From Sodiomyces alkalinus F11 (Eukaryota > Ascomycota > Sordariomycetes > Glomerellales > Plectosphaerellaceae), in contig NW_021167084.1 in assembly GCF_003711515.1 (NCBI RefSeq), forward strand, positions 2,335,932-2,399,931: a stretch of DNA of 64,000 nucleotides. Direction: 5' to 3'. Position 1 is the stretch's first letter. The number at the start of each line of letters is the position of its first letter. A model generated the notes under the pieces. The model saw nothing but the letters and a program-made list of their open reading frames with translations. It did no database searches and had not been told where the DNA came from. The translations under genes and the position numbers were made by a program. Of this stretch, positions 30,312-50,335 are shown piece by piece.

Positions 30312-30847
30312 TATTACGACGGCTTCCGGTCCTCTATAGTATAGCGGACGATAGGGGACTGGCGTCGAGGTTTTAGTTTAAAATAAGAAGAGGATATTAA
30401 CTAAAGAGCAGTAACTGTTATTCGTAGTGTCTAGTCGTAGTTACGTCGTAAAGACTAGGCGTCTTCTTTATAAGGTAGAGTTAGGCGTAGACTAATAGTC
30501 TAGGTGAAGACTTAGATTAATCGATATCTTATTCTCTAGTAGAAGTAAGACCTAGGATATTCTGGTTTATATAGTGATAGTGCCTCCTTACCCGTAGTGA
30601 CTATTCCTTACGTGGTCGCTATGCCCGGGTGATTCTATTATGACCGATTACTTATTAGTCACTTCGTCGGAGTAATCGACCCCGGTCCGTCCCGGACGGT
30701 ATACTAAGTACCTCCGTACCTAGTAACACGTGACTTAGCATATAACTCCCTAAGTTATCCTATACTACCCCCCGTTTAGAGCCGTCCCGTGGGATATACA
30801 CTAGTATACCTATAGGGTTAGTCTATATTAGGCGGCCGGCCGTAATA
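30312..30847 (-). repeat. 3' LTR of chromovirus A (536 bp)
   Basis: It starts TATTACGACGG and ends CCGGCCGTAATA, giving a 7-bp inverted terminus (TATTACG/CGTAATA); a TG...CA form before RIP is likely. It is collinear with the right LTR, with differences that are almost all C/T or G/A. Confidence 0.92.
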
Positions 30848-30950
30848 TTACCTTCCTCCTTTTAAGCGCTATCCTAGCGGTCGTATAAGTAGGTCGCTTT
30901 TCCCTAGTTAGTATTCCTTAGGTTTTCCTTCTTTTTTATTACTAACTATT

Positions 30951-31581
30951 ATATCCGACCGTGTCCAGAAGTCGTCTTATCCTAAATCTCGTTCCGCCAA
31001 AAACCGATCGACCGTTTCTGCCCTTATCGCTGATTAAGGCTACGAGGTCGTCCCCTGCACCCGTTATGCCTTTAAGAACGTACCGTGCTTCGTTCTGGAC
31101 GATATCGCTCGCTATTACGCGTGTTTCCGCTTAGGTCGTTCTTATAATAGTGCTAGAATCCTAATATCTTCTAGTACGCTCCTGCCCTCGCCTTCCCGCT
31201 TAGCCTCTATTTACTTACCCCCTCGCCTTCCTAGCGGGTCGTATAAACGAAGAGCTAAAGCGCCTTAAATAAGAGGAGGAACGGACCGAGGAGATACTCT
31301 ATAAGGCGCTCGCCCGCTTATCCCGCCTTCGCCGAACTCGTCGCCTGCTACGGAAGAAGGGGGTGGAAATAGTTCGTAAGGACCTTACCGATATAGAGGA
31401 GCTCGAGAAGGTGGAGAAGGAGGAAAAAAAGGCCTATCGGGCCGAGTTAGAGGCGGTGGCCACTATATAAGCTACCGGTGCTGTTAACGTGATTAATTAG
31501 AACTAGGTAATAGCGCAGGATATAGGTGAATTCTCGGATATTAATTTTATACAGACCGCGGCGTCTGGTTCTAGGTCCTGA
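30951..31581 (+). pseudogene. Antisense accessory gene of chromovirus A: Zn2Cys6-like cluster plus coiled coil, two exons
   Basis: On the strand opposite to pol, exon 1 (30951-31173) and exon 2 (31235-31581) join in phase 1 across a 61-nt intron (GTACGC to CTAG). Exon 1 reads VPCTRYAFKNVPCFVLDD then RYYACFRLGRSY. Counting Tyr as lost Cys gives C-x2-C-x6-C-x8-C-x2-C-x6-C, the spacing of a fungal Zn2Cys6 cluster. Exon 2 is a charged coiled coil (NEELKRLK, then LARLSRLRRTRRLLRKKGVE, then DIEELEKVEKEEKK). The start codon is ATA where ATG is expected, and the internal stops are TAA/TAG. All are G-to-A or C-to-T changes. The frame ends 28 bp before the convergent pol stop at 31610. Nuclear DNA binding is inferred from the cluster; it is now dead. 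Confidence 0.7.
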
Positions 31582-31609
31582 TAGTGTTCTATCGGTACTG
31601 CTTTAGGAG

Positions 31610-34600
31610 TTACTTATAATTAATCAGGTTATCTTTTAGTTCCTATATATTATCGCTATAATCGTAGTTTTTCTATTTTATAAAATATTCGGTGCCGTCT
31701 AGCGTCTCTTAGTGGTTAAGGATTCATTCTGCTTCATACACATCACTAGTATCGACCACCATCATATCTTATATTATTTTTACGTTTTTCGGTGCTAGTT
31801 TAAGTAGTGAAATATAGAAATTATTATATATCCTTATTATCGGAGGTAGTAATAGAATATAGTTCATATCTAACTTTTTCTCTAGGATTTTAAACGGTCC
31901 TAATTTTTTAAAATCCAATTTATCGCTTAGTCGTTATGTCTTGATATTTTTGCGAATAAGGTAGACGTGGTCCCCCCTTAAAAGGGTTAGTCCCTTAATC
32001 CTTAATTAATTCGCGTACCTGCTTATTCGTGTTCTGACTATCTCTAGGTCGGTTCGTAGTTCTTCGTGTAGTTTTTTCATGCTTTTAACTATTTTTATCG
32101 CTCTTAGTACGTCTAGTCCTTCTAAAGGTTTTCTAAATACTATCAGGGTATATCCGTAATTTACTTCGAACGGTGTTTTCTTTATTAACTCGTTTAACGA
32201 GCTATTATATATAAACTATATAAGTGGCAGGTACTACACCTAATTATCTTATTCGTACCCTATGTAGTATCGTAGGTACTATTCCAGGACTTAGTTTATA
32301 ATTTCGGTTTATCCGTCCGTTATAGGGTGAAACGCTATCGAATACTTATATTTCGTTCCTAGCTAGCTTATAACTACTTTCCAGAAGTTACTAGTAAAGA
32401 GCTTATCTCTGTCCGTGATGATTTTATTCGGTGCGCCGTGATCCCTGATTAGGCGGTCGATAAAGATACTTACTAGTTCTTCTGCTATAGTGTTTTTGAT
32501 ATATAGAATATAAAGAGTGTATTTTATGAATCGGTCGACGATCACGAATATACTATTATAGGCGGTTCCTGTTACTGGATCTTTGGATACTGGAAATCCT
32601 GTCACGAAGTCTATTATAATCGATTTCTATAGTCCGTCTATTACTAGCAGTGGCTTTAGTAGTCCGTAAGGTTTATATCGGCTGCTCTTTACTTTCTAGT
32701 AAATATCGTAGTTACGAATAAAGTCCCTGACTCGTTCTTTAGTTCCTGTATAGCCGTATTATTATCGTAATCGGTGGTATATTTTATAAACTCCTTGATA
32801 TCTATATATCGGCGAGGCGTGTGCTTCTTTAAATATAGTGTCGGTTATCCGATTAATGCTATTTACCTCTTTATCCTTTAGTGTAAGAGCTTCTCCTTCC
32901 TATTAAAGTATAGCTTACGGTTTAGGTGATTTATTAGGTGTCCCTAGTCGGCTAAGTGCGTCTACACGACTATTTTCGCTCCCTTTTATATACTAGATAT
33001 AGAAGTTGAATTCGGCTAGGAATTCTGCCTATCGGATGTATCATTTATTAAGAACCTTAGCAGTGGTGAATTACGCGAGGTTCTTATAATCCGTGTAGAC
33101 TTATACCGGGTGTTTTATCCCTAACAGATACGGTCTCTATTCTTTAAGGGCTTCGATAATAGCTATTAGCTCTTTATCGTAGATTTAATAGTTAAGTTCT
33201 GGTCCACTGAGTTTCTTGGATATAAAGGCTATAGGGTGTAGTCTTCCTTCTACGTCGCGCTATCCGAGTTATGCTCCTAGAGCCTAGTCAGATACGTCTA
33301 TTTCGAGTTCGTATTTTTTATTAGGGTCTGGCATTGCTAAGATAGGTTCGCTGGTAACCCTTCCTTTAAGAGCTTAGAATGCTTCTTCTATTCTTTCGTT
33401 CCATTCGAAGTTAAGCCCCTTTTTAGTTACTTTAGTTAAGGGAATAGTAATCTTACTATAGTCCTTAATAAATCGTTAATAGTAGTTAATAAGTCCGAGA
33501 AAGGACTGAATATCACGAATATTCTGGGGTCGTGGCTATTTAGAGACGTATTAGACTTTCGCCTTATCTATACAGATCTCGTTAGGTCGTATCGTATAAC
33601 CTAAAAAGTTGACTTCTTACGTGTGGAATTAAACTTTTTCTGGTTCGACTAATAGGTCGGCGTTTTATAGGAGTTATAGGATCGTGTGAATATATTATCG
33701 GTGTTCTTCAAGTGTTTTAGAGAAGATTAGGATATTATCTAGGTATACTATAACGAAGTAGTCTAGATACTTCCTTAGGACGTCGTTAATAAGTGTTTAG
33801 AACGATACCGGCGTATTTATTAGTCTAAAAGGTATAACGAGGTACTCGAAATATCCTCGCTTTATCCGAAACGCTATCTTTTACTCTTCTCCTTCCTTAA
33901 TCCTAATTAAGTTATAGGCTCCTTTTAAGTCGAGTGCCGTAAACTATTACGCTCTAACTAGCTAATCTTATATCTCCGAGATAAAAGGTAATAGGTAGCG
34001 GTTCTTAATAGTTATATCGTTAAGTTATCGATAATCGATATATAGTCGTAGTTTACCGTTTTTCTTTAGTATAAATAGGATCGGGTATCCTGCTAGTAAT
34101 TAGGATACTCTGATATAGCCTTTTACTAATATCTTTTCGAGATATTCTTCTAAGGTATCTGATTCCTTCTGGTTTAGCCCGTAAATTAGAAAGAATTTTA
34201 GGTGTATCCCTTCCTTCAGGGGTATCTCGTGATTATAGTGCCGGTGTTTCGGTAATCCGGTCTCTAGATTTTCGGTAAATAGCTTTCTGTATTTACGGTA
34301 TTCTGGTAATACCTTAGCGAGTCTATTATAATCGCTTATTACTAGTCCTTTTTCTGCTTAGACGATCTGGTAGATTCCTTTAATAATATTAGTTACGCGT
34401 TAGTGGTTATACCGTCGCTGCTATCTTAAAGTCTTTTATACTTCCTTCGCCTTAGTCCCTGACTTCTGGCGGTTATCTAAGTCTCCCTAAGGCTCCTTTA
34501 TCGGTAAGTCTTTCTGCTATTTTCGACGGATATCGGGATCGGGTAAGGTTTCCTTCGTGGTCTCCTACTTACTCTCTAATCTCCACCAGAGCTAGCTAAG

Positions 34601-36879
34601 CTTTTAGTCTATATCGGGATTCTATTCGTTAAACCATAGTTCACTAAGGATAACGTCCTTATAACCTATATCGTATATATCGAACTTTATTATTCTAGTC
34701 TTATTCTGGATTTTAACCTAAAGGTGTATAGTCTCCTAGTTAATAATGACTTCTTCGTGGGACTGGTTCTTTCCCGTATACGGAGTAATCTTATACTCCT
34801 CTTCTAGGTGTTTTCTAACCCAGGGAATAGAGAACTTTCTCACGGCTACCGGTAAGATAAAGTTTCCTGCTACGCCTATATCTAATAGTGCGTTTATCTC
34901 GTATTCGTTAAGTCGTATTCTGATATAATAGTGCCCTATACTACTACGTGTTATAGAGTATATCTATCGAGTACCTTTTATATACTCCTAGCGATAGTAT
35001 ACTCCTAGTTTTTTGCCTATTTAGCTCGGTGTTCGAGGGATATTTCCTTATCTAAGAACCCGTACTGGATTAAAAGTTATTCTATCCGTCGTAGACGTTC
35101 GTCAAGGGCCTAGAAGCGTGATTCCTAAGCTTCTTAGTCTTATCCTAGTTATCGGATTTTCTTAGAAGCGTGTGTTACGTAGCTAGTAGTATCGTATTCG
35201 TTTAACCGGTACTTATAGTAATTATGCCTAGGTAGTTAATCGTCCGATCCTCGTAGGCTCGCTGCCCGGTCGGTAAGAGTGTCCCGGTCCTCCTAAGCGT
35301 GGTAAGGTCGCTAATATATAGCTCGTTACTACCCCCCGCTAGTATTTATCGGTACTATACGGTAGGCTTTACTAAGGTTAGGTTTAGTAAAACGGACTTA
35401 GTGGGTTTATCCTAGTAGTTCTTCTGCGAGCTAGTCGAGTACCCGTAGCTAAATAGCTTCTTCCTCGACTAGGTCGGCTACTTCTATAGGTTAATACTAG
35501 AAGTTCGTGTTATTATCCGGGATTCTGTCGGACTCCGTTTCCTAATCTTACTCTTCGAGCTTAGCGATTCTCTTTCGGGCACGATCTTCTCCCTCCTAGA
35601 TTTCTAAGATCTACTTCTATCCCTTAGCTTCTTCTTTCGTCTATCCGTATTTTTAAAGGATTTCTGCGATAGTTTATAAAGCTAGTTTATCCTTATCCTA
35701 GTCGGGGATCTTAAGGCTATAGTCGTTATCGTACTTATTACTAGATACTATAGCGAGTATCTTCTAGGGTCTCTTAGGGTAGTACCTAGCTCCGTCTTTC
35801 CCTAATTAGTGTGCTAGATAATAGTTATCGTAGCAGGTTACCTAATAGAGGTTAACGTGTGGTATTTTATCCCTATGAATTTCTAGGTGTTTAATAGCGT
35901 TAATTTCCTTCTAGGGTCTTCCTTTCTCGATCGTATTTGCTTATCGTTATAGTCGTTCTTTCTTAGGCTTATAATAGTCGCGTGCGTAGTGACCTGGCCT
36001 GTTATAGTTATAACACTTAACTTTCGTTATATCCCTTTTACCCTACTTATCGCTTTATCGGTTAATATTATCGAGCTTTATAGGTCCACTATAGTATCTA
36101 TATAAGGTGTTTCCGAACTAGCGTGGGTATAATTATTTCTTCTTCGAATTAGCCGTGTAGAACAGAACGCTTATTTAATACTTTTTCTAACAGCGTTATT
36201 TATAGTTCCGGTTATCGATACGAATTACTATCGCGGTATATTCGCTAAACGTCTTAGGTTAGTCTAATTAATATAGTTTATCCTTCACTTCTTCCTTAAG
36301 TCCTTAGTAGTACTAATCTATAAGGGGCTTATCCGGGTAGCTAAGCTTTAACGAGATTTACTAGAATCTCGTAGTATAGTCCGTAGCTAACTTAGTCTAA
36401 TATAGCTAGCTTAGTCGTTCGGCCGTGACTCTTTCCTTATCGGGCTAGCCGAAGATAGCGTTAAGTCTCTCGACGAATACGTCGAAGTTCTCGAAGATTG
36501 CCGTGGTCCCGGGCTTCCTTAGGATCTTTATTCCTATATTCTCCAGGTAATCTCTATAGATAGACTCGAACTATTCGTGCGTATCTCCCGTAAGGAGTGC
36601 CGCGGTATAGAGTACCTTAGTTTCTTCCGTACGGATACTATCCTAGTAGAATAGGAGATAGCCTCTAAGCTAAGTAATAAAGCTCTAAAGCTATCCTCGA
36701 GTCCTGTCGTACTTAGGGGGTGTAGGGTATCTATACTTAGCCCCGATTCTAGGATGGTTTAGCTAAGCTCTTAGGGTCGTATTCTCCCCCTAAAGCTAAG
36801 TAATTATATCGCGAATCTACTAAAGGTCGTTACTTCCTCTAGTAGTAGTGGTAGGCGTCGCGGTGCTTATAGCGTTCAT
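31610..36879 (-). pseudogene. Degenerate gag-pol of chromovirus A
   Basis: Gag begins at a surviving ATG (36879, MNAISTATPTTTTRG) and reads through many TAG/TAA stops. The zinc knuckle near 35970-36017 reads CYNYNRPGHYARDY, with two of its three Cys changed to Tyr. Protease is near 34640-34930, ending in VILSELWF. The reverse transcriptase box at 33734-33745 is YLDN instead of YLDD. The integrase core includes an open 80-codon stretch (32605-32363) with FVIVDRFIKY and IITDRDKLFTSNFW. A chromodomain (ETLDGTEYFIK, then KNY) near 31640-31740 closes the polyprotein. Every key loss fits G-to-A on this strand. The enzyme functions are lost. Confidence 0.85.
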
Positions 36880-37104
36880 AGTACGGTTTTATTATTCGAT
36901 ATATTAGAAGAGTGATTACTAGCTACTTCGTCGTCTTATTAAGTTTGTTCTGGTCCTTCCTCTTTATCGGAGGAGCTGGATTCTTCAGACGATGATTCTT
37001 CTTCAGATAAAGTGACTTCTTTTTCCTTAGGCGAAGTAGCTTCTGCTTCGGGTGTACTGCTTATTAGCTATTAAGGTTAGCTTACCGAATAGGATCGATT
37101 AAAA

Positions 37105-37644
37105 TATTACGACGGCTTCCGGTCCTCTATAGTATAGCGGACGATAGGGGACTAGCGTTAAGGTTTTAGTTTAAAATAAGAAGAGGATATTAACTAAAGA
37201 GTAGTAACTATTATTCGTAGTGTTTAGTCGTAGTTACGTCGTAAAGACTAGGCGTCTTCTTTATAAGGTAGAGTTAGGCATAGACTAATAGTCTAGGTGA
37301 AGACTTAGATTAATCGATATCTTATTCTCTAGTAGAAGTAAGACCTAGGATATTCTGGTTTATATAGTGATAGTGCCTCCTTACCTGTAGTAACTATTCC
37401 TTACGTGGTCGCTATGCCCGGGTGATTCTATTATGACCGATCACTAATATATTAGTCACTTCGTCGGAGTAATCGACCCCGGTCCGTCCCGGACGGTATA
37501 CTAAGTACCTCCGTACCTGGTGACACGTGACTTGGCACGTGACTCCCCAAGTCATCCTATGCTGCCCCCCGTCTAGGGCCGTCCCGTGGGATATACACCA
37601 GTGTACCTATAGGGTTAGTCTATGTTAGGCGGCCGGCCGTAATA
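37105..37644 (-). repeat. 5' LTR of chromovirus A (540 bp)
   Basis: This partner of 30312-30847 keeps more CA and TG dinucleotides in its last 130 bp (37510-37644), for example GACACGTGACTTGGCACGTG where the other LTR has TA instead of CA/TG. It is therefore less mutated at this outer end. Confidence 0.92.
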
Positions 37645-37649
37645 AGGCT

Positions 37650-37834
37650 ATTACGGGGTTTTTTATTTAGCTATTTAGCCAGGAGCAGTTTAACGATAAC
37701 CGCTACGAAAAGTGCTAGGATAAGCGCGGTAATTTAGAGGGCTATATTACCTTAGACGGCTTCGGGAACGGAGCCTACGGTAATTACTATAGCGGCTTAG
37801 AAGGAGCTAAGTATTCGCTATACTATAAGATACC
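37650..37834 (+). pseudogene. Middle fragment of the interrupted outer-element reading frame
   Basis: This 185-bp island of outer-element DNA lies between the two chromoviruses, bounded by AGGCT and ATACC. Its plus-strand frame continues that of 30160-30311: SQEQFNDNRYEKC, then DKRGNLEGYITLDGFGNGAY, then SGLEGAKYSLYYKIP. It carries only RIP-type stops and runs on past element B at 44971. The protein is unknown to me; the low-complexity Gly/Tyr segment is the only visible trait. Confidence 0.45.
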
Positions 37835-38316
37835 TGTTATGACCTGGGTTCCTGGACACTAAGTCTGGGGTCCCTAGCTAGGGTTATCGTGAGTTTGTAT
37901 TCACGAGGTAAGAGGGGGTTATAAGCTAAGCGTAATTCTTTCGTAACTTCCCGTAGGCGGTCGTAAGGCAAGTCTGCCTCTTCACTATAATACTTAAGGA
38001 GGTTCCTAATAAAGACTTAGATTAAACACTGTCTTGTTCTCTAGTAGAAGCAAGACCTAGGATACTTTAGTATATATATCTAGCTATTTATATTCCCCTA
38101 GGTAAACTCTCCTTCCCTATTCACGATAGCTCGAGTAAACTTAAGGCCGAGTTCACTTCCCTCTAGGTGAATATCCTGCTTTATTCACGGCTACCTCAGT
38201 AAATAACCCTTATTCTATTATATAACCTGTATATATAGTATATATATACCTTCTAATAACATTATCCCTTTATTATATAGTTAGCTTCCTTAATAGCCTA
38301 TTCTTTAGCCGTAATA
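37835..38316 (-). repeat. 3' LTR of chromovirus B (482 bp)
   Basis: It starts TGTTATGACC and ends GCCGTAATA. An internal block around AAGACTTAGATTAA and GACCTAGGATA is shared with the LTRs of element A. Confidence 0.92.
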
Positions 38317-38425
38317 TTATCTCCCTCCTTTATAACGTTATCCTAACGTTTTTTTTTCCTTCTTATTATATTAGTAAGTCCTCCTAGTTTTCTTTCTTCC
38401 TCTATATTTCCTACTTCTAATTACT

Positions 38426-39087
38426 ATAACGCGAGTAGAGAAAACTCCTTTAGCGAAATCGCGTTCGACTAAAAATCGTTCCCTGGTCTCGGCGCTTATC
38501 TCCGGGCAGGGTTACGAGGTTATCCCTTATACTCGTTACTTCGATAAGTCCTTTAGTTATTTCGTTCTTAACGATATCGGTTATTATTCTACTTATTACC
38601 TCGCCGGTTATTCTTACGATTCTTCCCGAGTTCCTATATTATCGAGTAAGTTATTTCGTAATCTTTTCTCCTTCCTTTACTTATAGTTCTTTCCCTTTTC
38701 CTAGTTAGCCGTATCCACGAGGAGCTTCGCCGTCTTAAGCGAGAAGAGGAGTAGGCAGAAAAGGCCCTACTTACTCGCCGTCGTTAACTCGAAAAAGAGG
38801 TAGATAAGGCCCTTGCTCGGCTCCTGTATCTAAGAAAGATACGCCGTAGTCTACGTAAACGGGGTATCGAAATAGTGCGGAAGGATTTAGTAAATCTCGA
38901 GGAACTAGAGGAATCCGAACGTCGTGAAAAAGCTCGCCTCGAGGAGTTCCGGCGGGTGGAGTCCGAAGTTATAGTGGCGACTTAATCTGCTAACGTTATC
39001 GATAAGATTAATTAGGATACGGTATTAGGTAATATAGCTTCTTCCGGTACTAGTACAGAAGTTATTAGCAGTTCGTTAAGTTCTTAA
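38426..39087 (+). pseudogene. Antisense accessory gene of chromovirus B: Zn2Cys6-like cluster plus coiled coil, two exons
   Basis: Exon 1 (38426-38645) and exon 2 (38705-39087) join in phase 1 across a 59-nt intron with a canonical GTAAGT donor and CTAG acceptor, at the same place as in element A. Exon 1 shares VSALISGQGYEVIPYTRY with A (VSALIAD, GYEVVPCTRY). Here all six cluster positions are Tyr, keeping the x2-x6-x8-x2-x6 spacing, as expected if every TGY codon became TAY. Exon 2 gives HEELRRLKREEE, then ARLLYLRKIRRSLRKRGIEI, then LEELEESERREK. The start is ATA, and the last stop overlaps the convergent pol end by about 23 bp. Conservation of frame, intron and spacing across diverged elements is the main evidence that it was once a real gene. 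Confidence 0.7.
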
Positions 39088-42000
39088 TTAGTTTCTATAT
39101 ATTTTCTTCGTCTTTATAGTTTTTCCACTTAATAAAATATTCTATACCGTTTAGCGTCTCTTAGTGGTTAAGGATTCGTTTAACTTCGTATTCTTCGTTA
39201 TTCTCGATTTCGATAGGGTCTCTTATGTATAACCCCTATAATACTAGTTCTAATAATAAGACGTGAAAGACTAGGTGTATTTTTATAGTCTTAGGTAATA
39301 AAAGGTAGTAGTTAGTATCCGAGATTTTCTTTAAAATTTTAAAAGGTCCGATCTTCTTAAAATCCAATTTATCGCTTAGTCGCTTAGTTTTAATATTTCG
39401 CCGTACAAGGTAGGCACTATCCCCCTCTTTAAAGATTGGTCCCTTTAACCTTATCTTATCGGCGTATGTTTTTATTCTAATCCTAACTATCTCTAGGTCT
39501 TGCCGTAGTTGATCGTGGATGTCCTTGATTTCTTCGGCTTTCTTAGTGGCTCTGGGCGCTTCTCGCGCTTCTCTGGGTTCTCCGTAAGCCGTAGGTGTGA
39601 ATCTATAGTTAGCGTAGAATAGTGTAATTTTACTAGATTCGTTTAGTGCACTATTATATATAAACTATTCTAGTGGTAGTAGTTTAACCTAGTTATCCTG
39701 CTTATAGTTAATATAGTATCTAAGATATTATTCGAGGGTTTAGTTCGTTCTTTCCGTTTATCTATCGGTCTATAAGTAAAACGCTATTAATAGTCGGTAG
39801 TCTATCCCTAGTTATACGACTAGAGATTTCTAAAATTTACTAGTAAATAGTTTATCTTAATCCGTGACTAGTTATTTCGGTATTTTATAGTTTCCTATAA
39901 TATATCTTAGGAAAGTGTATACGAGTTATTCGGTAGTAGTCGTAGTGTCGAATAGTAAAAAGTACGCGTACTTAGTTAATCGGTCCACGATTACTTATAC
40001 GCTATTATACTTTTTCCTAGTAGTTAGATTTTTTAACTTAGGTAATCCCGTAATAAAGTCTATATATACTAACTCCTATACCGCTTCTAGAATTAGTAGT
40101 AGTTATAGTAGTCTATAGGGCTTATGCCTTAATCCTTTCGCTTTATTATACATTTCGCACTTCTTAATATAGTCTTATACTTATTATTTGGTTCCTCGAT
40201 ATCCGTAGTGTTATCGTAGTCGTTAATACGTCTTAGTCACTCCCTAATAACCGTGCGCTAGTAGATTATACGCTTATCGAATAATATCTTAGTTAATTCT
40301 TTCGATCGGTGTAAGTTCCCGGAACTTATTAATTAATTTCTTATTCTGCTATTAGAGTATAGCGTGTTACTCTTCGTTTACTTATTCTAGTAGCTATTAG
40401 CGACTTAGTGCGTCTACTCTTTTATTTTCTAATCCTTTTCGATACTAGATCTTAAAGTTAAATTCTAATAAGAATTCTGCCTATCTAACTTATCGTTTAT
40501 TCAGCACTTTGCTTATAGTAAAATAAGTCAGGTTCTTATAATCAGTGTAGACCTTAATAGGGTACTCTATCCTAGATAGGTACGGTCTCTATTTCTTAAA
40601 TACTTCGATAATTACTATTAACTCTTTATCGTGGATCGGGTAGTTAAGTTCTAGTCCGTGGAGTTTCTTCGAGAAGAAGGCTACCGGATATAGGCGTCCC
40701 TCCTCGTCTCTTTATCCTAGCTATCCTCCTAAAGCGTAGTCGGAGGCGTCGGTCTCCACTTCGTATAGCTTTATAGGGTCTAGTATTCGTAGTATTAGTC
40801 TGCTAAGAATTCTTTTTCTGATTTCCTATAAGGCTGCTTTAGCCTTATCGGTCTATTCGAATTTCTGATCTTTCTTAGTTATTCCTGTTAAGGGCGTTAC
40901 GATCTTTCCGTAATCCTTTATAAATTATCGGTAAAAGTTAGCGAAGCCTAAAAACGCTTAAATATCGCGAATACTTATAGGCGTAGGCTATTCTATAACG
41001 GCTTAGACTTTCGATTCTTCTATATAGATCTCTCCTAGCTTAATAGTGAATCCGAGGAAGTTAACTTCCTTCTTATAGAACTAACTCTTCTTAGGCTTAA
41101 CCAGTAGCTTCGCTTCCTAGAGCTTACCTAGAATCTTATAAATATATCCTTTATATTCTTTAAGGGTCTCCGAGAAGATAAGGATATCGTTAAGGTATAT
41201 AACCACGAAGTCGTTTAGGTACTCTTATAGTATATTATTAATTATAGACTAAAAGGTAGTAGGCGTATTAGTTAGTCTAAAAGGCATAACGAGGTACTCG
41301 AAGTATCCTTCTTACGTCCGAAACGCAGTTTTCTATTCTTCCCCCTCCTTAATTCTAATAAGGTTATAAGCTCTTTTTAGGTCAAGTGCTATAAACTATT
41401 ACGCTCCCTATAAGCGATCTTATAATTCGCTAATAACTAGTAAAGGGTAGCGATTTTTAATAGTGATATTATTAAGCTATCGGTAGTTTATATTAAGTCG
41501 TAGTTTATTATTCTTTTTTAGTATAAATAGAATAGGGTATCCTACTAGTAACGTTAAAGGTCTAATATATCCTTTCTAGAGATATTCTCGGATATACTCG
41601 CGTAAGGCGTCTCTCTCCTTCTAGTTAAGGCTATAGATCTTATAGAACTTAGGGTTAGTTCCTAGCTTTAACGGGATTTTATAATTATAGTGCCTATATT
41701 TAGGTAAACCGGTTTCTAACTCTTCCCGGAAGAGTTTCTTATACTATTAGTATTCTTTGGGTATTTATACTAATCGTTCGTTATCCTTTTAAGCTATCTT
41801 AATAAATATAAGTATAAGTTTCCGTTCTTATTTCACTTATTACTTAGTCTAGTCCCGGCTAAACACTATCTTTCGCGGTGTCTTTTCCTTTTTTACTCGT
41901 TTCTTTCGTTTCTTCGTTTTCTCTTCGTGCGTGCCCGTTAAGGGTCTTTCTTCGGGGTCGTTTAAGGGATCGCTCCTAGATCTCTCCTTAGTAACTGACT

Positions 42001-44483: not shown

Positions 44484-44965
44484 TGTTATGACCTAGGTTT
44501 CTAGACACTAAGTCTAGGATCCCTAGCTGGGGTTATCGTGAGTTTATATTTATGAGGTAAGAGGAGGTTATAAGCTAAGCGTAATTCTTTCGTAACTTCC
44601 CGTAGGCGGTCGTAAGATAAGTCTGCCTTTTTATTATAATACTTAAGGAGGTTCCTAATAAAGACTTAGATTAAACACTGTCTTATTCTCTAGTAGAAGC
44701 CAGACCTAGGATACTCTAGTATATATATCTAGCTGTTTATATTCCTCTGGGTGAACTCTCCTCCCCTGTTCACGATGGCTCGAGTGAACTTAAGGCCGAG
44801 TTCACTTCCCTCCAGGTAAATATCCTGCTTTATTCACGGCTACCTCAGTGAATAACCCTTATCCTGTCATATGACCTGTATATATAGTACACACATGTCT
44901 TCTGATGATATTATCCCTTTATTATACAGTTGGCTTCCTTGATAGCCTATTCTTTGGCCGTAATA
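44484..44965 (-). repeat. 5' LTR of chromovirus B (482 bp)
   Basis: This equal-length partner of 37835-38316 is followed by ATACC. Its outer 250 bp keeps more CA/TG (for example GTACACACATGTCTTCTGAT), so it is the less mutated copy. Confidence 0.92.
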
Positions 44966-44970
44966 ATACC

Positions 44971-45178
44971 CTATAGCTCTCTATAACTCTGTATAGAACT
45001 ATACTAATTAGATTTATAGTCGCGAAGAATAAGAAGCGCCGCGCCTCTATTATAGAGGATACTAACGATACTGATAGCTCGGATATATCGCCCCGTAGCC
45101 TTCGGGAGATAGCGCGATGGCTTAAGAATAAGGCGGACCGTAGTAAGTTACTATTCTTACCCGTATAGAGCTTTACAG
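44971..45178 (+). pseudogene. Right-hand coding scrap of the outer element
   Basis: After element B a plus-strand frame reads VAKNKKRRASIIEDTNDTDS, then SPRSLREIARWLKNKADRSK, ending in TAG at 45176. It is in a different frame from the fragment that crosses the insertions, so an intron or a second gene is possible. The basic patch followed by an acidic Ser/Asp stretch is the only trait I can name. Confidence 0.4.
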
Positions 45179-45631
45179 ATATATACTAACCTGTACGTTA
45201 AGAGGAAAATAAGTAATTATTTTTAGTTTTTGTTTTAAAAAAAAACCACCTTTTCTTTAGCTTTTGTGTGGTAAATAATAATACCTATTTTAATTTTTGA
45301 AAATAAGCTTTAATAATATAAAAAATATATATATATAAGGTAAATAGTATAATACCTTATTTATTATATTATATTATTTATTATATATTTAAATAATAAA
45401 AGATAACTTATATTTAACTATATACTTATTCTTATATTTATTTCTGAATTTATTCTTATATAACGTATAGTATTACTTATGACTAGTACTATAAGTAGCC
45501 TTAGTAGTATTAGATATCTTATAAGTTATATTATAAAAGATAGTTAGAGCTACTAATATTATAAGTAATATAGTTAACTAATTATTACTTATTATACTAC
45601 CCTATTTAAGAGGCTTTTGATTAGTAAAAAG

Positions 45632-45662
<31 letters not shown>

Positions 45663-48600
45663 TACTTAAGTATATAATATAAGGTACTTATAAGATAATA
45701 AAGTAACCTTACTTTAAATTATTATTATTATTATTATCGATCTTACTCCGCTATCCTAACTAATCTATAGGAGCCTTTCTAGGCTATACGCTCCTTCTCG
45801 GGTGGCTATAGAGGGGAAAACCCAGGTAAAACCCGGGGAAAACCTCTATACCTTACTTTAAATAAAAGTAATTAATCTTACTAAGACTCTAAAAAGTATA
45901 AAACTATAGAACTAAGGCTATATAGCTTCTATATTTTATACTATTATAAAAAGCGTCTTACTCTTACTATACTCGTTCTAAGTTATATACTATATCCTTT
46001 AATATTTAAAGAGGTTTACTCCTATTAGTCTAGCTATTAGTCTAATTATATAAATAATAGGTATAATAGAGTTATTAGCCTCTCTTAGTACTATTTAGGT
46101 TAAGTACTATTATATTAAATATAGGTTTAGACCTAGGAAATATCCTTAATATATATAGAATAAAGCTATTAATATAATATACTTAAATATCTTAGTTTTA
46201 GTATTCTTTTTACTATTCCGAATTAAGGGTATATAATTAACTTATTATTAGTTTGGACGCCGTGAAATGAAGTAATTAGTAATTAATTAATTGAATTAAT
46301 ATAGCTATCCCTGTTAGTAAATATCTAAGAGTAAGGCTAGTCACAGATTATATATTACCTATTAGATTATAATACTCTTATTTATACTACTCTTACTCTT
46401 AAACTACTTATAGTAACTAGACCTTAATAGAGCTAGATCTTTAGACTCTTAATAGCTTTAAGCATTATTAGTAATATCCTTTATTGCTAGCTTATTAAAG
46501 CTAGCTTTACTAGGCTAAACGTCCTTTTATAGTCTATTACTATCGCTAGTAGTATAAAGATATTATAAGCTAGCTAACTAAGCGATAAGAAGGCCTTTTA
46601 TTAATATAACTACTACTTAATTAGGTCCTTAACGCCTTAGATATCTAGGCGTAGATATCTCTTAACCTCCGAGTCTTTATTAGCCGCTACGCACTCAGCG
46701 CTATCCGAAACCTATTATATATAGTAGCTATTATCTTCTAGCGTTACTATCGCTACCTAAACTGCTATAGTTATTATTACCCTGCTTTATAGGTTACTAG
46801 TAGCGATTCTACCTCTTTTAGTACTTAGTAGGCTCTTTTTTAGTATTACTAAGGTTATTAGTATTCTATAGTCTAATACTCTTCTAACTAAGTAAGGCTA
46901 AGTCTCGGATATAGTATTATAGCCGTAGTATAAAGAAATAAGTCTTTTAGGTTAGTATAATAATCGTTAGCTTTTACTATATAGTTATTATAAAGAGTCT
47001 AAAATATATCCTTAAACTAGTTACTAAAGCCTTGTAGCTATTCTATATATAACCTCCTTAGATAGATATTAATTAAGAGGCTTAGGAGACTTAAAAGGCT
47101 TAGCTCCTCGAGATAGTAATTATCCTAGAAGGTTATTATATATTTTATAGACTATTAGAATTAATAGAGCCTATAGTCTTACTAGAATCGTTGGATAGAA
47201 ATATAGAATACCTATTATAGAGGTAGTCTTATAGATAAGGCCTTAAATAGCCTTACGAAACTACCTTGTTAATTATAATAGTAGTAAACCTAAGAGTAGT
47301 TCTTATACGAAGTATTATAATAAACCTTATTAACGAATATTCTATAGTTCTTGATCTAGTAAGTCCTTTCTTTAGATCTCTTTATATAAACTTAATCGGT
47401 ATAAGTAAACTCCCTATTATGCTATATTATAATAGGCGGGGTATTAGATCTATATTCGTTAAACTATAACTTAAGAGGTATAGGGGGACGGGCTTTAAAT
47501 ACCGTATGGCTAATAATAGGTAATTAAGGTAGCAGAAAAGGGTAGTAAACTATATATTAAGGAGGATAGTAGATACTTTAGATTAATATACGAGGCAGAT
47601 ACTATAAATTAAATAGTTTCCTACTACTATTATTAGCTCCTAGATAGAAACTATTATACTAGTCACTATAGTAGTTATTATAAAGGTATATAGGAATACG
47701 ATATATATTATATAATTATAAGCTATAGGCTATATATTATAATAGTATACTACTAACTATTATAGTTAGACGTTATACGTTCGGTTCCTGTTATAGGCGT
47801 TAGTTAGTAGCTTATGCTTTTCTTTAAAAATATAGCTATAATTTTGTTTCTATTTTTCCTGAATTTCTATTCGTCTAGAACCGGACTAATACTACGCTAA
47901 CTAATATTAGAGAATTAACCAATTCACTAAACCGGGGATATAAATTAACTATTTAAATTAATTTAATAGTAATGCTAATTACTAGTTATGAATAATATAT
48001 TATTCTAATAATCTCTAACTAGAAATATAAAGTAGATACTTCCTTATAACCTTATGGTTCAATATATTAAGGTCTTTAAAAATATAATACTCTAATTATT
48101 TAAGTCTACCTTTAGTACTTCATTACTCACAAGAGTCTTATTATAAATAGTCTTTTAGATATACTATATATTATATAAAGACTATAAATATACTTTATTA
48201 TTACTCTTAGACTTAGTATTTATCTAATAACTTACTTATATAATAATATAAACTAATATATAGAAAACGTGATATATTAAGATATATAATAGCTAGTATA
48301 CGACTTTATAATAGTAAATATAGTATATTATAATATATAATAGGCTATAAAATACCTTTTATGCCTTATATAATACGAATAAAATAATAACGAAAATATA
48401 ATACTATAAAAGCAAAATATACTAATAATAGTTGTTAATTTCCCTTATTTTTATACTTCTATTTATATACTTTTACTTATATCTATATATATATATATAT
48501 ATATAAATATGTTATTAGTAACACTTATACAGTATATTTATACTTATATATATATAACACTTACTAGTCTTCCTTTAAGTAAAATATAATTACCCTTATT

Positions 48601-48717
48601 ATATTTCTCTGCTTATTTAATCTAACTAAGCCTTACTAGAAAGGTTTTCAGTGCCTTCCTGCCTCCTACCTCTCCGTATAGCTCTATACATAACACCACC
48701 GATATATAAGGCAAATA
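45179..48717. other. Very AT-rich inner part of the outer element, nothing recognisable
   Basis: About 3.5 kb of extreme AT content holds only short open stretches, a (TA)n run near 45637-45661 and poly-A/T tracts. The 67-codon open stretch at 47266-47469 shows no family trait. RIP may have erased coding content. Confidence 0.5.
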
Positions 48718-50335
48718 ACAGGACCTTAAACCTCTTCGCGAGGAGATCTACCGCCGCTACGAAGCGGGCTTTTCTGACGACTTTATTTACGACTATATAC
48801 GACAGTAAACAGGAATAACGATTAGCTATACCTTACTATAGCGCCGGTGTAAGGCCTACGGCCTCTCGCGCCAAACACGTATAGTTATATTAACGGATCT
48901 TATTCGACGCGTATATAAGCTTTTTTACAATAACCTCGACGATACCGAACTACTATAATAGCTATAGACCGAGGGCTTCCGGATATCGAAGTTCGGACTC
49001 GAAGGTATCCGAAAACGTAATAAGTTATAGCGATAGCAGGATATGCCACAGATCGAGGAGGCAAAAGCAAAAGCCAAAGAGTTCTTTAAGGGTAATAATC
49101 CTAATATATCCTTTACGCGGGGGCTCGGTGCTATATAGCTCTATATATTTATACGGTAGAAGGGCTTTATAATTAGCCGCGATACTCTTTACTATACCTT
49201 CTTAGAACTATTCCTAGAAGAGGTTACGGCCTGTATAAAGGAGATACGACACCGTAGAAAGGGCTGGATAATGCCCGGGCCGAATTTTATTTAGTCTATT
49301 AATACGTACGATAAGCTACTTCCCTTCGGCTTCGAGATCTACATCGGTATCGACGCCTACGCCCGATTTATAACTTAGTTCTACGTTAGAGTATCGGCGT
49401 ATACTGCTAGGAACGTCCTTACGTAGTATATCCACGTTATACGTTAGACTGAATTTCTCCCGCGGTTTATTTGGTTAGATTGGGGTAAAGAGATAATACT
49501 CTTCGCCGGCGTATACTAGTATATATCTGTATAGTCGCGTATAAAGAAGAACATAGCCGGTAAGGATATTCCGATTAAGTTTAAAGACTACTGGATATTT
49601 AGGAAGAGTATCTATAATTAACGTATTAAGGTATAGTAGAATAGACTCTATTAGTCCTGTTTGGTATATTAAAGCGTAAGTAATTATTATACTACTGCTT
49701 TATTAGTATTATATTCCTTTACTAATATATATTTAGGAGTATTTTATTTATCTCTCCGAAAATAGCCTTTTCGATAACCGTTCGATTACCGACCGTATTA
49801 CGCTACTTTACGTATATATACTACTTATACGTACCGACTTTATATAATTTATACGGGTCTATACTAGCCATCGTATCCGCGTATAGCGTTCTTGGCCGTA
49901 TATTATTACTAGTAAGCCTTAGGTGCTTTATTACTAGGCTAAACGGGACTTCCGGGTATAGCCGGATCCTATATAGCTTTGTATACTAGAAAACGCCCTT
50001 ATAGAAGATCTTTAATAGCTTAATATATATCTGCCTACGGATATTATAGTAGTATACTTAGCGCTTAAGTCTACCACGGGCAGCCTCTAAGAGATACTGA
50101 CTATAAACGGTAAAGAGTATCCTGCGCTTTCTCTGTATAGTTATATACGTAATAGTCTAAATATATATATAGCCGCGAAGACCGAACCCTAGCTTTTATT
50201 ATTACCCGCGCCTCGTGGTAATATCGCGGCTATAAAGGACTTACTTAAAAAGGAGGGCTTAGATATAGAATAGGCTATAATAGGAACTAATAAGACTGAT
50301 TTAGCCTTTTCGGATATAAAAAGCGAGGGTAGTAA
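48718..50335 (+). pseudogene. Degenerate integrase-core (DDE, rve-like) transposase of the outer element
   Basis: One plus-strand frame is readable from LKPLREEIYRRYEAGFSDDF through a helix-turn-helix-like N-terminus (ITISYTLL, RRCKAYGLSRQT) to a catalytic core. Catalytic landmarks are SINTYDKLLPFGFEI followed by IGIDAYARFIT (about 49290-49375), which supplies the first Asp, and PRFIWLDWGKEIILFAG (about 49460-49510), which has the D-x-G-x-E pattern. Most interruptions are TAG/TAA/TGA stops explained by C-to-T or G-to-A change. The IDxYxRxI pattern is typical of eukaryotic integrase-core transposases outside retroelements. It would cut and join the 41-bp ends; now it is dead. Confidence 0.65.

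Follow-up and report, generated by a model that had tools for sequence, protein, structure and literature searches.

An antisense gene beside the 3' end of two retroelements

The 64,000-nucleotide stretch of Sodiomyces alkalinus F11 contig NW_021167084.1 analysed here (positions 2,335,932 to 2,399,931 of the forward strand; the window) holds two diverged long terminal repeat (LTR) retrotransposons, elements A and B, both of which carry an additional gene antisense to gag-pol. We assign the two elements to the chromovirus type, Ty3/gypsy retrotransposons with a chromodomain after the integrase C-terminal domain, judging by the domains at their pol ends: SH3_Tf2-1 (55 bits) and Chromo (30 bits, cut-off 25.1) both pass in element B, and SH3_Tf2-1 passes in element A (43.5 bits), where Chromo falls below its cut-off at 21.8 bits. 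Whereas gag-pol of both elements lies on the minus strand, the additional gene is on the plus strand, in the interval from the pol end to the 3' LTR, beginning about 100 bases inward of the LTR and running toward the pol end, of which it stops about 37 bases short in element A (Table 1). A first-pass annotation, made from the letters of this DNA alone, had proposed a two-exon plus-strand gene at this place in both elements, and its coordinates hold, as does the phase-1 intron that it described at the same codon in both (donors GTACGC and GTAAGT, acceptors CTAG). Overall, the gene is about 200 codons long, antisense, usually spliced and carried by a large chromovirus clade.

Searches of the host genome (43.4 Mb in 22 contigs) with the element B protein returned 88 matches for exon 1 and 88 for exon 2. 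We read 59 distinct gene copies, 57 of which have an exon-2 match, and scored cysteine columns in 61. A pattern search places the phase-1 donor at the same codon in 54 of the 57 copies and finds none in L011, L013 and L063; a branch site of the CTAAC/CTGAC type is present in 30 of the 57 and in none of the 27 copies of gene classes A and B, and the acceptor is CAG in 4 copies and TAG in 53. The start codon is ATG in 10 copies and ATA in 43, and ATA was read directly in 4 class B copies to which the search pattern is inapplicable. The damage by repeat-induced point mutation (RIP) that the first-pass annotation had assumed is evident from a TA/AT index of 1.67 in both A and B, against 0.37-0.48 in three host stretches. 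The ATA starts and the changes from Cys to Tyr would arise because RIP turns TG into TA on the strand of the antisense gene, and the TAG acceptors because it turns CA into TA. Copies L092 and L093, whose RIP indices lie below those of A and B, retain an ATG start, six cysteines, a GTGGGT donor, a CAG acceptor and a CTGAC or CTAAC branch site. Furthermore, copy L094 (C3:3275100-3275800) belongs to a diverged lineage resembling database homologue P0032, in which the gene is intronless and the cysteine cluster and coiled coil share a single frame. At C9:1144859 and C9:1146898, two element ends about 2 kb apart have identical exon-1 peptides, as after local duplication.

Among 92 gene matches collected up to an E-value of 0.1 (88 for exon 1 and 4 for exon 2 alone), 91 lie within 1.7 kb of a pol-end match on the other strand, always in convergent orientation; the 92nd (C7:812408) was rejected as an element gene, being an unrelated and apparently host frame. 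This convergence, together with the intact homologues described below, rules out a chance or artefactual origin, and the pol end lies opposite to the gene in each of the 57 copies read. We also surveyed the genome from the side of pol, scoring the best 150 of 322 pol-end candidates and setting a cut of our own at E 3e-16, which retained the top 110. The antisense gene was found near 90 of these 110, a diverged version resembling P0032 is carried by 8 more, and a further 2 were recovered with homologue P0026 (E 2e-4 and 0.2); the gene is therefore a standing part of one chromovirus clade in the host genome. No gene was detected with queries of the antisense family at 36 of the 40 lower-ranked pol matches among the best 150. 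Most of these 40 fall in a further chromovirus clade with about 40 percent identity in the pol end.

A single RIP-damaged peptide of element B found no match in the protein database, and a profile built from ten damaged copies found at least 35 homologues (7991 and 7995 candidates scored in the two homologue lists), with Verticillium, Trichoderma and Bionectria among the sources named in the matches listed. The frame is intact in Verticillium and Trichoderma records, as the first-pass annotation expected of undamaged relatives. A scan of IMG/VR with homologue P0003 gave no match. Source names do not always fit: the metagenome homologues P0013, P0015, P0018 and P0021 bear names, such as maltooligosyltrehalose synthase, at odds with their sequences, and P0016 carries the source name Zn(2)-C6 protein.

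Table 1. Features of elements A and B, in window coordinates.
Feature	Position	Strand	Remarks
Element A 3' LTR	30312-30847	-	U3 side probably faces the antisense gene, R/U5 at low coordinates
Element A operator-like inverted repeat AGTCAC-N9-GTAATC	30657..30677	.	U3 of 3' LTR
Element A polypurine-tract-like stretch	30851..30863	-	adjoins 3' LTR; putative, from reading of the bases
Element A antisense exon 1	30951..31173	+	six-Cys cluster, 3/6 Cys left; ATA start; one in-frame stop
Element A antisense intron	31174..31234	+	61 nt, phase 1, GTACGC...CTAG
Element A antisense exon 2	31235..31581	+	coiled coil and C-terminal tail; in-frame stops
Element A pol end, integrase C-terminal SH3_Tf2-1 and chromodomain	31619..32083	-	convergent with antisense gene
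Element A 5' LTR	37105-37644	-
Element A 5' LTR copy of AGTCAC-N9-GTAATC inverted repeat	37454..37474	.	U3
Element B 3' LTR	37835-38319	-
Element B operator-like sites, three, (A/G)TTCAC-N10-GT(G/A)AA(C/T)	38119..38204	.	U3 of 3' LTR
Element B antisense exon 1	38426..38645	+	Tyr at 6/6 Cys places; ATA start
Element B antisense intron	38646..38704	+	59 nt, phase 1, GTAAGT...CTAG
Element B antisense exon 2	38705..39087	+	coiled coil and tail; in-frame stops
Element B pol end, SH3_Tf2-1 and Chromo	39068..39538	-	tail-to-tail overlap with antisense stop, about 20 bases
Element B 5' LTR	44484-44968	-
Element B 5' LTR copies of its three operator-like sites	44768..44853	.	U3; starts 44768, 44800, 44832
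Conserved 67-bp TATA stretch	30507-30573, 37300-37366, 38012-38078, 44661-44727		LTRs of A and B

Protein layout and coding constraint

At the six cysteine columns all 61 scored copies hold Cys or Tyr only (Cys in 91 and Tyr in 275 of 366 cells), with both residues present at each column, and this under a column-placing pattern that would also have admitted Arg, His, Ser or a stop. Reading Tyr as converted Cys, as the first-pass annotation did for its two elements, fits all of these copies, and its count of the cysteines left in A and B holds. All six are kept in three genome copies (L049, L092 and L093), and unmutated relatives, to which the same annotation had looked for a decision, do have them: six cysteines are present in 15 of the 16 cluster-spanning sequences among the 35 database homologues checked. 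Fungal Zn2Cys6 clusters have the spacing C-x2-C-x6-C-x5..12-C-x2-C-x6..8-C, and the family follows it, most homologues having x2-x6-x8-x2-x6; P0008 and P0009 are off by one in the second gap, the middle gap is x9 in P0026, and the last is x8 or x7 in P0031, P0032 and P0035. Genome copies L049 and L093 match the spacing exactly, and L092 does so with a 9-residue loop. In 13-row alignments of full homologues, which leave out 22 of the 35, mostly short ones (P0016 and P0025 with six cysteines, P0002 with four and two Tyr, P0004 and others without a full cluster), the invariant positions ahead of the coiled coil are the six cysteines and one proline just before Cys 1.

A profile search of the Protein Data Bank gave 12 matches, 10 of them Gal4-type factors (E 0.16-9.4), and the AF2 model (mean predicted local distance difference test, pLDDT, 80; predicted template modelling score, pTM, 0.44) has helices at residues 47-52, 66-71 and 82-140, the last spanning 59 residues, with Pho7-DNA as its top Foldseek match (E 0.51). 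VIA ranks the long-helix matches 9dtr and Vipp1 above Hap1 and Put3, and we treated these as coiled-coil noise. The C-terminal tail is acidic, with a net charge of -2 to -8 in all 29 sequences that reach it, and the N-terminus ahead of the cluster is neutral to basic (0 to +5 in six homologues). The succession of six-Cys cluster, coiled coil and acidic tail looks like the layout of a small Gal4-like regulator, in which the cluster would bind zinc, and the statement that the protein works like a Zn2Cys6 protein is better supported than the statement that it is one.

To gauge selection we counted transversions, since RIP makes transitions only, in tests that treat sites as independent. Between A and B, exon 2 has accumulated 21, 7 and 41 transversions at codon positions 1, 2 and 3 (chi-square p 3e-6), and the third position leads in each of the 15 pairings of class representatives, 12 of them with p<0.05; exon 2 is shown by these counts to be under coding constraint. 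The antisense exons do not lie inside pol, because pol ends before or at the antisense stop, which rules out a constraint imposed through an overlapping frame of pol.

U3 repeats and their co-variation with the gene

The U3 part of the LTR contains inverted repeats that resemble operators, described by the motif NNTYAC-Nd-GTRANN with six-base matching arms, or by its core TYAC-Nd-GTRA, and scored in 14 class representatives or in all 57 copies. At spacings d of 9 to 11 there are 27 six-base-arm sites in the 14 U3s, whereas 200 shuffles gave 2.6 on average and never more than 9; outside U3 the same representatives have one such site in R/U5 and none in the gene or at the pol end. In the 3' LTR of element B the sites start at 38119, 38151 and 38183, 32 bp apart, and their spacer sequences differ. 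When the core is scored in the distal U3, taken as the interval from 450 to 290 bases ahead of the reference codon, at least one site is found in 52 of the 57 copies, and each group keeps to one spacing in the d 9-11 range: 9 in classes A (21 sites) and C1 (10 sites), 10 in classes B, E and D and in two C2 groups (49 sites together), and 11 in the C2 group on the B backbone (8 sites). At other spacings from 5 to 15, class A has 12 sites at 5, C1 has 4, and the two C2y groups have 7 at 14 and 4 at 15. Successive sites are separated by 32, 33, 43, 44 or 55 bp in 42 of 42 cases, near three, four or five helical turns, and in 52 of the 57 copies a TATATA box belonging to the sense promoter lies 11-89 bp from the start of the first site. 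Repeats at spacings of 2, 12, 20 and 21 also exceed nearly all shuffles in U3, as does spacing 23 at the pol end, and some of these stem from palindrome runs such as CTAGTATA.

Two further features of the LTRs were observed. CACGTG occurs in U3 of 40 of the 57 copies and twice, 12 bp apart start to start, in 19 of them (L019, L025, L027, L038, L049 and L059 among these), and the paired motif is possibly recognised by a host factor. The LTRs of A and B, diverged over the rest of their length, share 67 bp that end in a TATA box, at 85-87 percent identity.

Module by module, we compared all pairs of the 57 copies by 12-mer similarity in a purine/pyrimidine alphabet, which is proof against RIP. 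U3 follows the gene closely (r 0.92) and pol much less so (r 0.43), U5 follows pol (r 0.85), and U3 and the gene stay correlated when pol and U5 are controlled for (partial r 0.91, a value that none of 999 permutations reached). The co-divergence of gene and pol that might be expected is weak (r 0.30). Five pairs involving copy L001 illustrate the pattern: they have nearly the same backbone, with transversion frequencies of 0.001-0.021 at the pol end and 0.008-0.019 in R/U5, and very different exon 1 (0.21-0.29) and U3 (0.19-0.32) sequences. Conversely, L001 and L008 (C1:2703442) share a class A gene and U3 on pol ends that differ by 0.276; L008 matches pol only partly and is probably a rearranged copy. 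The co-variation of U3 with the gene, like the intronless lineage, goes beyond what the first-pass annotation had noted.

Similar genes (similarity >0.4) sit on different pol backbones in 63 pairs. In these pairs U3 reaches a similarity of 0.36, compared with 0.13-0.14 where other genes are compared across backbones, U5 stays at background (0.07 versus 0.10-0.11), and the gene-proximal part of U3 follows the gene particularly well (0.48 versus 0.12-0.22). Because similar genes on different backbones bring similar gene-proximal U3 with them, the gene and part of U3 must have passed between element lineages. Two template switches, one within R or U3 and one close to where exon 2 ends, would produce such an exchange. 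In classes A, C, D and E, divergence is much lower in the tail of exon 2 and in the bases beyond it than over the remainder of the gene, and this shared region likely marks a recombination border.

Proposed function, rival explanations and known systems

The co-variation of gene and U3 suggests a control system supplied by the elements themselves, and we consider it fairly probable that the antisense gene encodes a Gal4-like dimer that binds the U3 of the element encoding it and so controls gag-pol transcription within its class. The gene would be transcribed from beside the 3' LTR and its product would dimerise through the coiled coil, bind TCAC-N9/10/11-GTGA (TYAC...GTRA after RIP) iterated in U3, and in this way act on the gag-pol promoter. 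Activation is the more likely direction, because of the acidic tail and because the sites lie upstream of the sense TATA box, in a position like that of an upstream activating sequence (UAS). The protein would be the simplest ligand of the U3 sites, since it is a coiled-coil, six-Cys protein encoded beside them and co-varying with them. Of the fungal-style antisense DNA-binding regulator put forward in the first-pass annotation, the gene, the cluster and the layout stand, with U3 co-variation in its favour; transcription, DNA binding, activation, cognate pairing and the direction of control we infer from the sequence. U3 and gene would act as one exchangeable module on a common R/U5-pol backbone. 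More tentatively, and with slightly less than even confidence, we propose that each class has its own regulator and matching, helically phased operators, which would form a recognition cassette swapped between backbones by recombination. If so, classes that share a replication machinery would be regulated independently, in the manner of phage immunity regions or plasmid incompatibility. The layout of the antisense-gene protein can now be recognised, relatives of it can be named, and its own promoter supplies a concrete candidate target; some hypothetical ascomycete proteins with cysteines and a coiled coil, P0016 among them, could be products of retrotransposon genes and not host regulators.

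Several observations weigh against a regulator of this kind, and we gather them here. On the protein side, the comparison with the PF00172 (Zn_clus) hidden Markov model, which the first-pass annotation had suggested as a check, came out negative: none of ten homologues reaches the curated cut-off of 21 bits (best 18.1). The family is listed below cut-off in six of the ten (best E 0.0028), and unrelated families score similarly (DUF2514, for example, at E 0.0082); the Pfam scan of three read-through genome copies has no PF00172 line, and scans of RIP-damaged exons returned nothing useful. Basic residues are expected between Cys 2 and Cys 3 of PF00172 clusters, and across the homologues this interval has no constant basic pattern, being basic in some (CQRKGWKC) and having few basic residues in others (CLGKRPC, CFDTSNRC). 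Homologue P0002 has Tyr at the fifth and sixth cysteines, the other four being kept. In exon 1, transversions between A and B are distributed 11/8/13 over the codon positions (p 0.55), and codon-position bias reaches p<0.05 in none of the 14 pairs tested; selection, which the first-pass annotation had wanted measured, is evident in exon 2, and constraint on exon 1 outside the cysteines could not be shown.

On the DNA side, the motif was spotted by eye in the same data in which its sites were counted, copies within a class are non-independent, and the splitting of class C2 by gene similarity and backbone is our own. The distal U3 lacks a core site in 5 of the 57 copies; no six-base-arm site is present in ten (L002, L004, L005 and L006 of class A; L017, L022, L024, L030, L063 and L065 of class C2), and in the C2 copy L021 an 11-spaced match lies closer to the gene. 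In the 63 cross-backbone pairs the distal, site-bearing part of U3 follows the gene weakly (0.15 versus 0.07-0.08). The strongest fact against a tight pairing of protein and site is that the spacing within a single gene class depends on the backbone, 10 in one case and 11 in the other: L019 and L025 encode nearly the same protein, bar a gap in exon 2, and yet differ in this way. Finally, the co-variation may be a linkage of neighbours, U3 and the gene lying side by side.

This last point leads to the main rival, which we regard as unlikely and in which the U3 repeats are the UAS of a host factor, and U3 and gene co-vary as an adjacent block that recombines, for instance when the template is switched within R and again close to where exon 2 ends. 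Contiguity of U3 and gene speaks for it, as does the closer following of the gene by gene-proximal U3 than by the site-bearing distal part across backbones (0.48 versus 0.15); so does the frequency of CACGTG, single or paired, a motif typical of sites for host basic helix-loop-helix factors. Over all pairs, however, the distal U3 tracks the gene at least as well as the gene-proximal part (0.89 versus 0.85), and a single host factor is not readily compatible with spacings of 9, 10 and 11 bp.

The same protein and sites could also serve repression, and we hold it to be a minority prospect that the dimer represses gag-pol in the manner of lambda repressor or of HBZ, the antisense product of human T-cell leukaemia virus type 1 (HTLV-1). 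Such a system would provide copy-number control and class-specific superinfection immunity, favouring new alleles and cassette swapping, and the deep divergence of gene and U3 alleles on near-identical backbones is what negative frequency dependence would be expected to produce. There is precedent in HBZ itself, which is made from an antisense spliced 3' LTR transcript and lowers Tax-driven 5' LTR activity (PMC3736048). The acidic C-terminal tail and the sites just upstream of the sense TATA box nevertheless fit an activator better than a repressor.

An accessory role in nuclear import, chromatin targeting or gag assembly, without binding to U3, appears improbable: the neutral to basic N-terminus ahead of the cluster and the nuclear location of plant antisense proteins such as Grande GENE23 (PMC7264820) would suit it, but it predicts neither the co-variation with U3 nor inverted repeats of fixed spacing. 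That the frame has no protein function, the antisense RNA acting instead (through double-stranded RNA or silencing, roles proposed for such regions in PMC7264820) or the frame being a captured host passenger, is highly improbable and already largely contradicted by the six cysteines of 15 of 16 homologues, the third-position excess in exon 2, the splice site at one codon in 54 of 57 copies and the intact Verticillium and Trichoderma frames.

Among known systems, the protein shares with Gal4, Put3, Hap1 and Pho7 (PF00172) the order of six cysteines and coiled coil, and its candidate sites share with theirs inverted half-sites at fixed spacing. Dimeric Gal4-type proteins (Gal4, Put3) bind such half-sites, Gal4 itself at CGG-N11-CCG. 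The antisense-gene protein differs from these regulators in scoring below the Pfam cut-off, in its variable interval between Cys 2 and Cys 3, in half-sites of TCAC and not CGG, and in being encoded by a retrotransposon. The immunity regions of lambdoid phages offer a parallel, in that a regulator gene varies, and travels, as a unit with its operators while the backbone is shared; the comparison is an analogy only, the putative module here consisting of U3 and an antisense gene of a retroelement.

A fungal example is brtn, reportedly described by Zhao et al. (2011, Virology 417:248). It is an antisense gene, placed between pol and the 3' LTR, of the Boty-like Ty3/gypsy elements of Botrytis cinerea (PMC7264820, PMC8365987, PMC4227169, PMC5987419), and the available parts of these citing descriptions mention no zinc cluster, splicing, U3 sites or allele swapping. 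No Botrytis name is found among the named homologues listed. Plant Ty3/gypsy elements carry antisense open reading frames (aORFs; Retand TRP28, Grande gene23, RIRE2) between pol and the 3' LTR, for which their authors propose a regulatory role by analogy with HBZ and other retroviral antisense genes (PMC11963269, PMC7264820). These share with the present gene its place and orientation and its retention in most copies, and a nuclear or DNA-binding role is suggested for them (PMC11963269, PMC7264820). Unlike ours, the Retand elements are not chromoviruses and encode a different protein, and TRP28 (PF04195) is absent from hmmscan lists up to E 10 for 17 proteins (4, 3 and 10 in three sets). HBZ of HTLV-1, like APH-2 of HTLV-2, is antisense, spliced, made from the 3' LTR and active on the 5' LTR (PMC3736048). 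Judged from position and intron signals in the DNA, our gene resembles it in an antisense start beside the 3' LTR and in splicing; whereas HBZ is a basic leucine zipper (bZIP) protein that works through CREB and Jun partners, the gene here has a six-Cys cluster, a coiled coil and candidate U3 sites, and neither a bZIP family in the Pfam lists of its proteins nor homology to HBZ was seen.

A figure legend in PMC2864245 mentions an additional open reading frame of unknown function in some elements, and the accessible portions of PMC3248453 and PMC3441728 describe no such antisense gene. None of the titles and abstracts searched, a scope outside which most subscription papers fall, reports that a fungal chromovirus carries an antisense gene with a zinc cluster, or that such a gene co-varies with U3. 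Antisense genes between pol and the 3' LTR were thus already known, and the zinc-cluster layout and the U3 module were not seen in the literature searched.

Elsewhere in the window, the stretch to the right of element B (45000-49000) has a guanine plus cytosine content of 27 percent and strong RIP indices.

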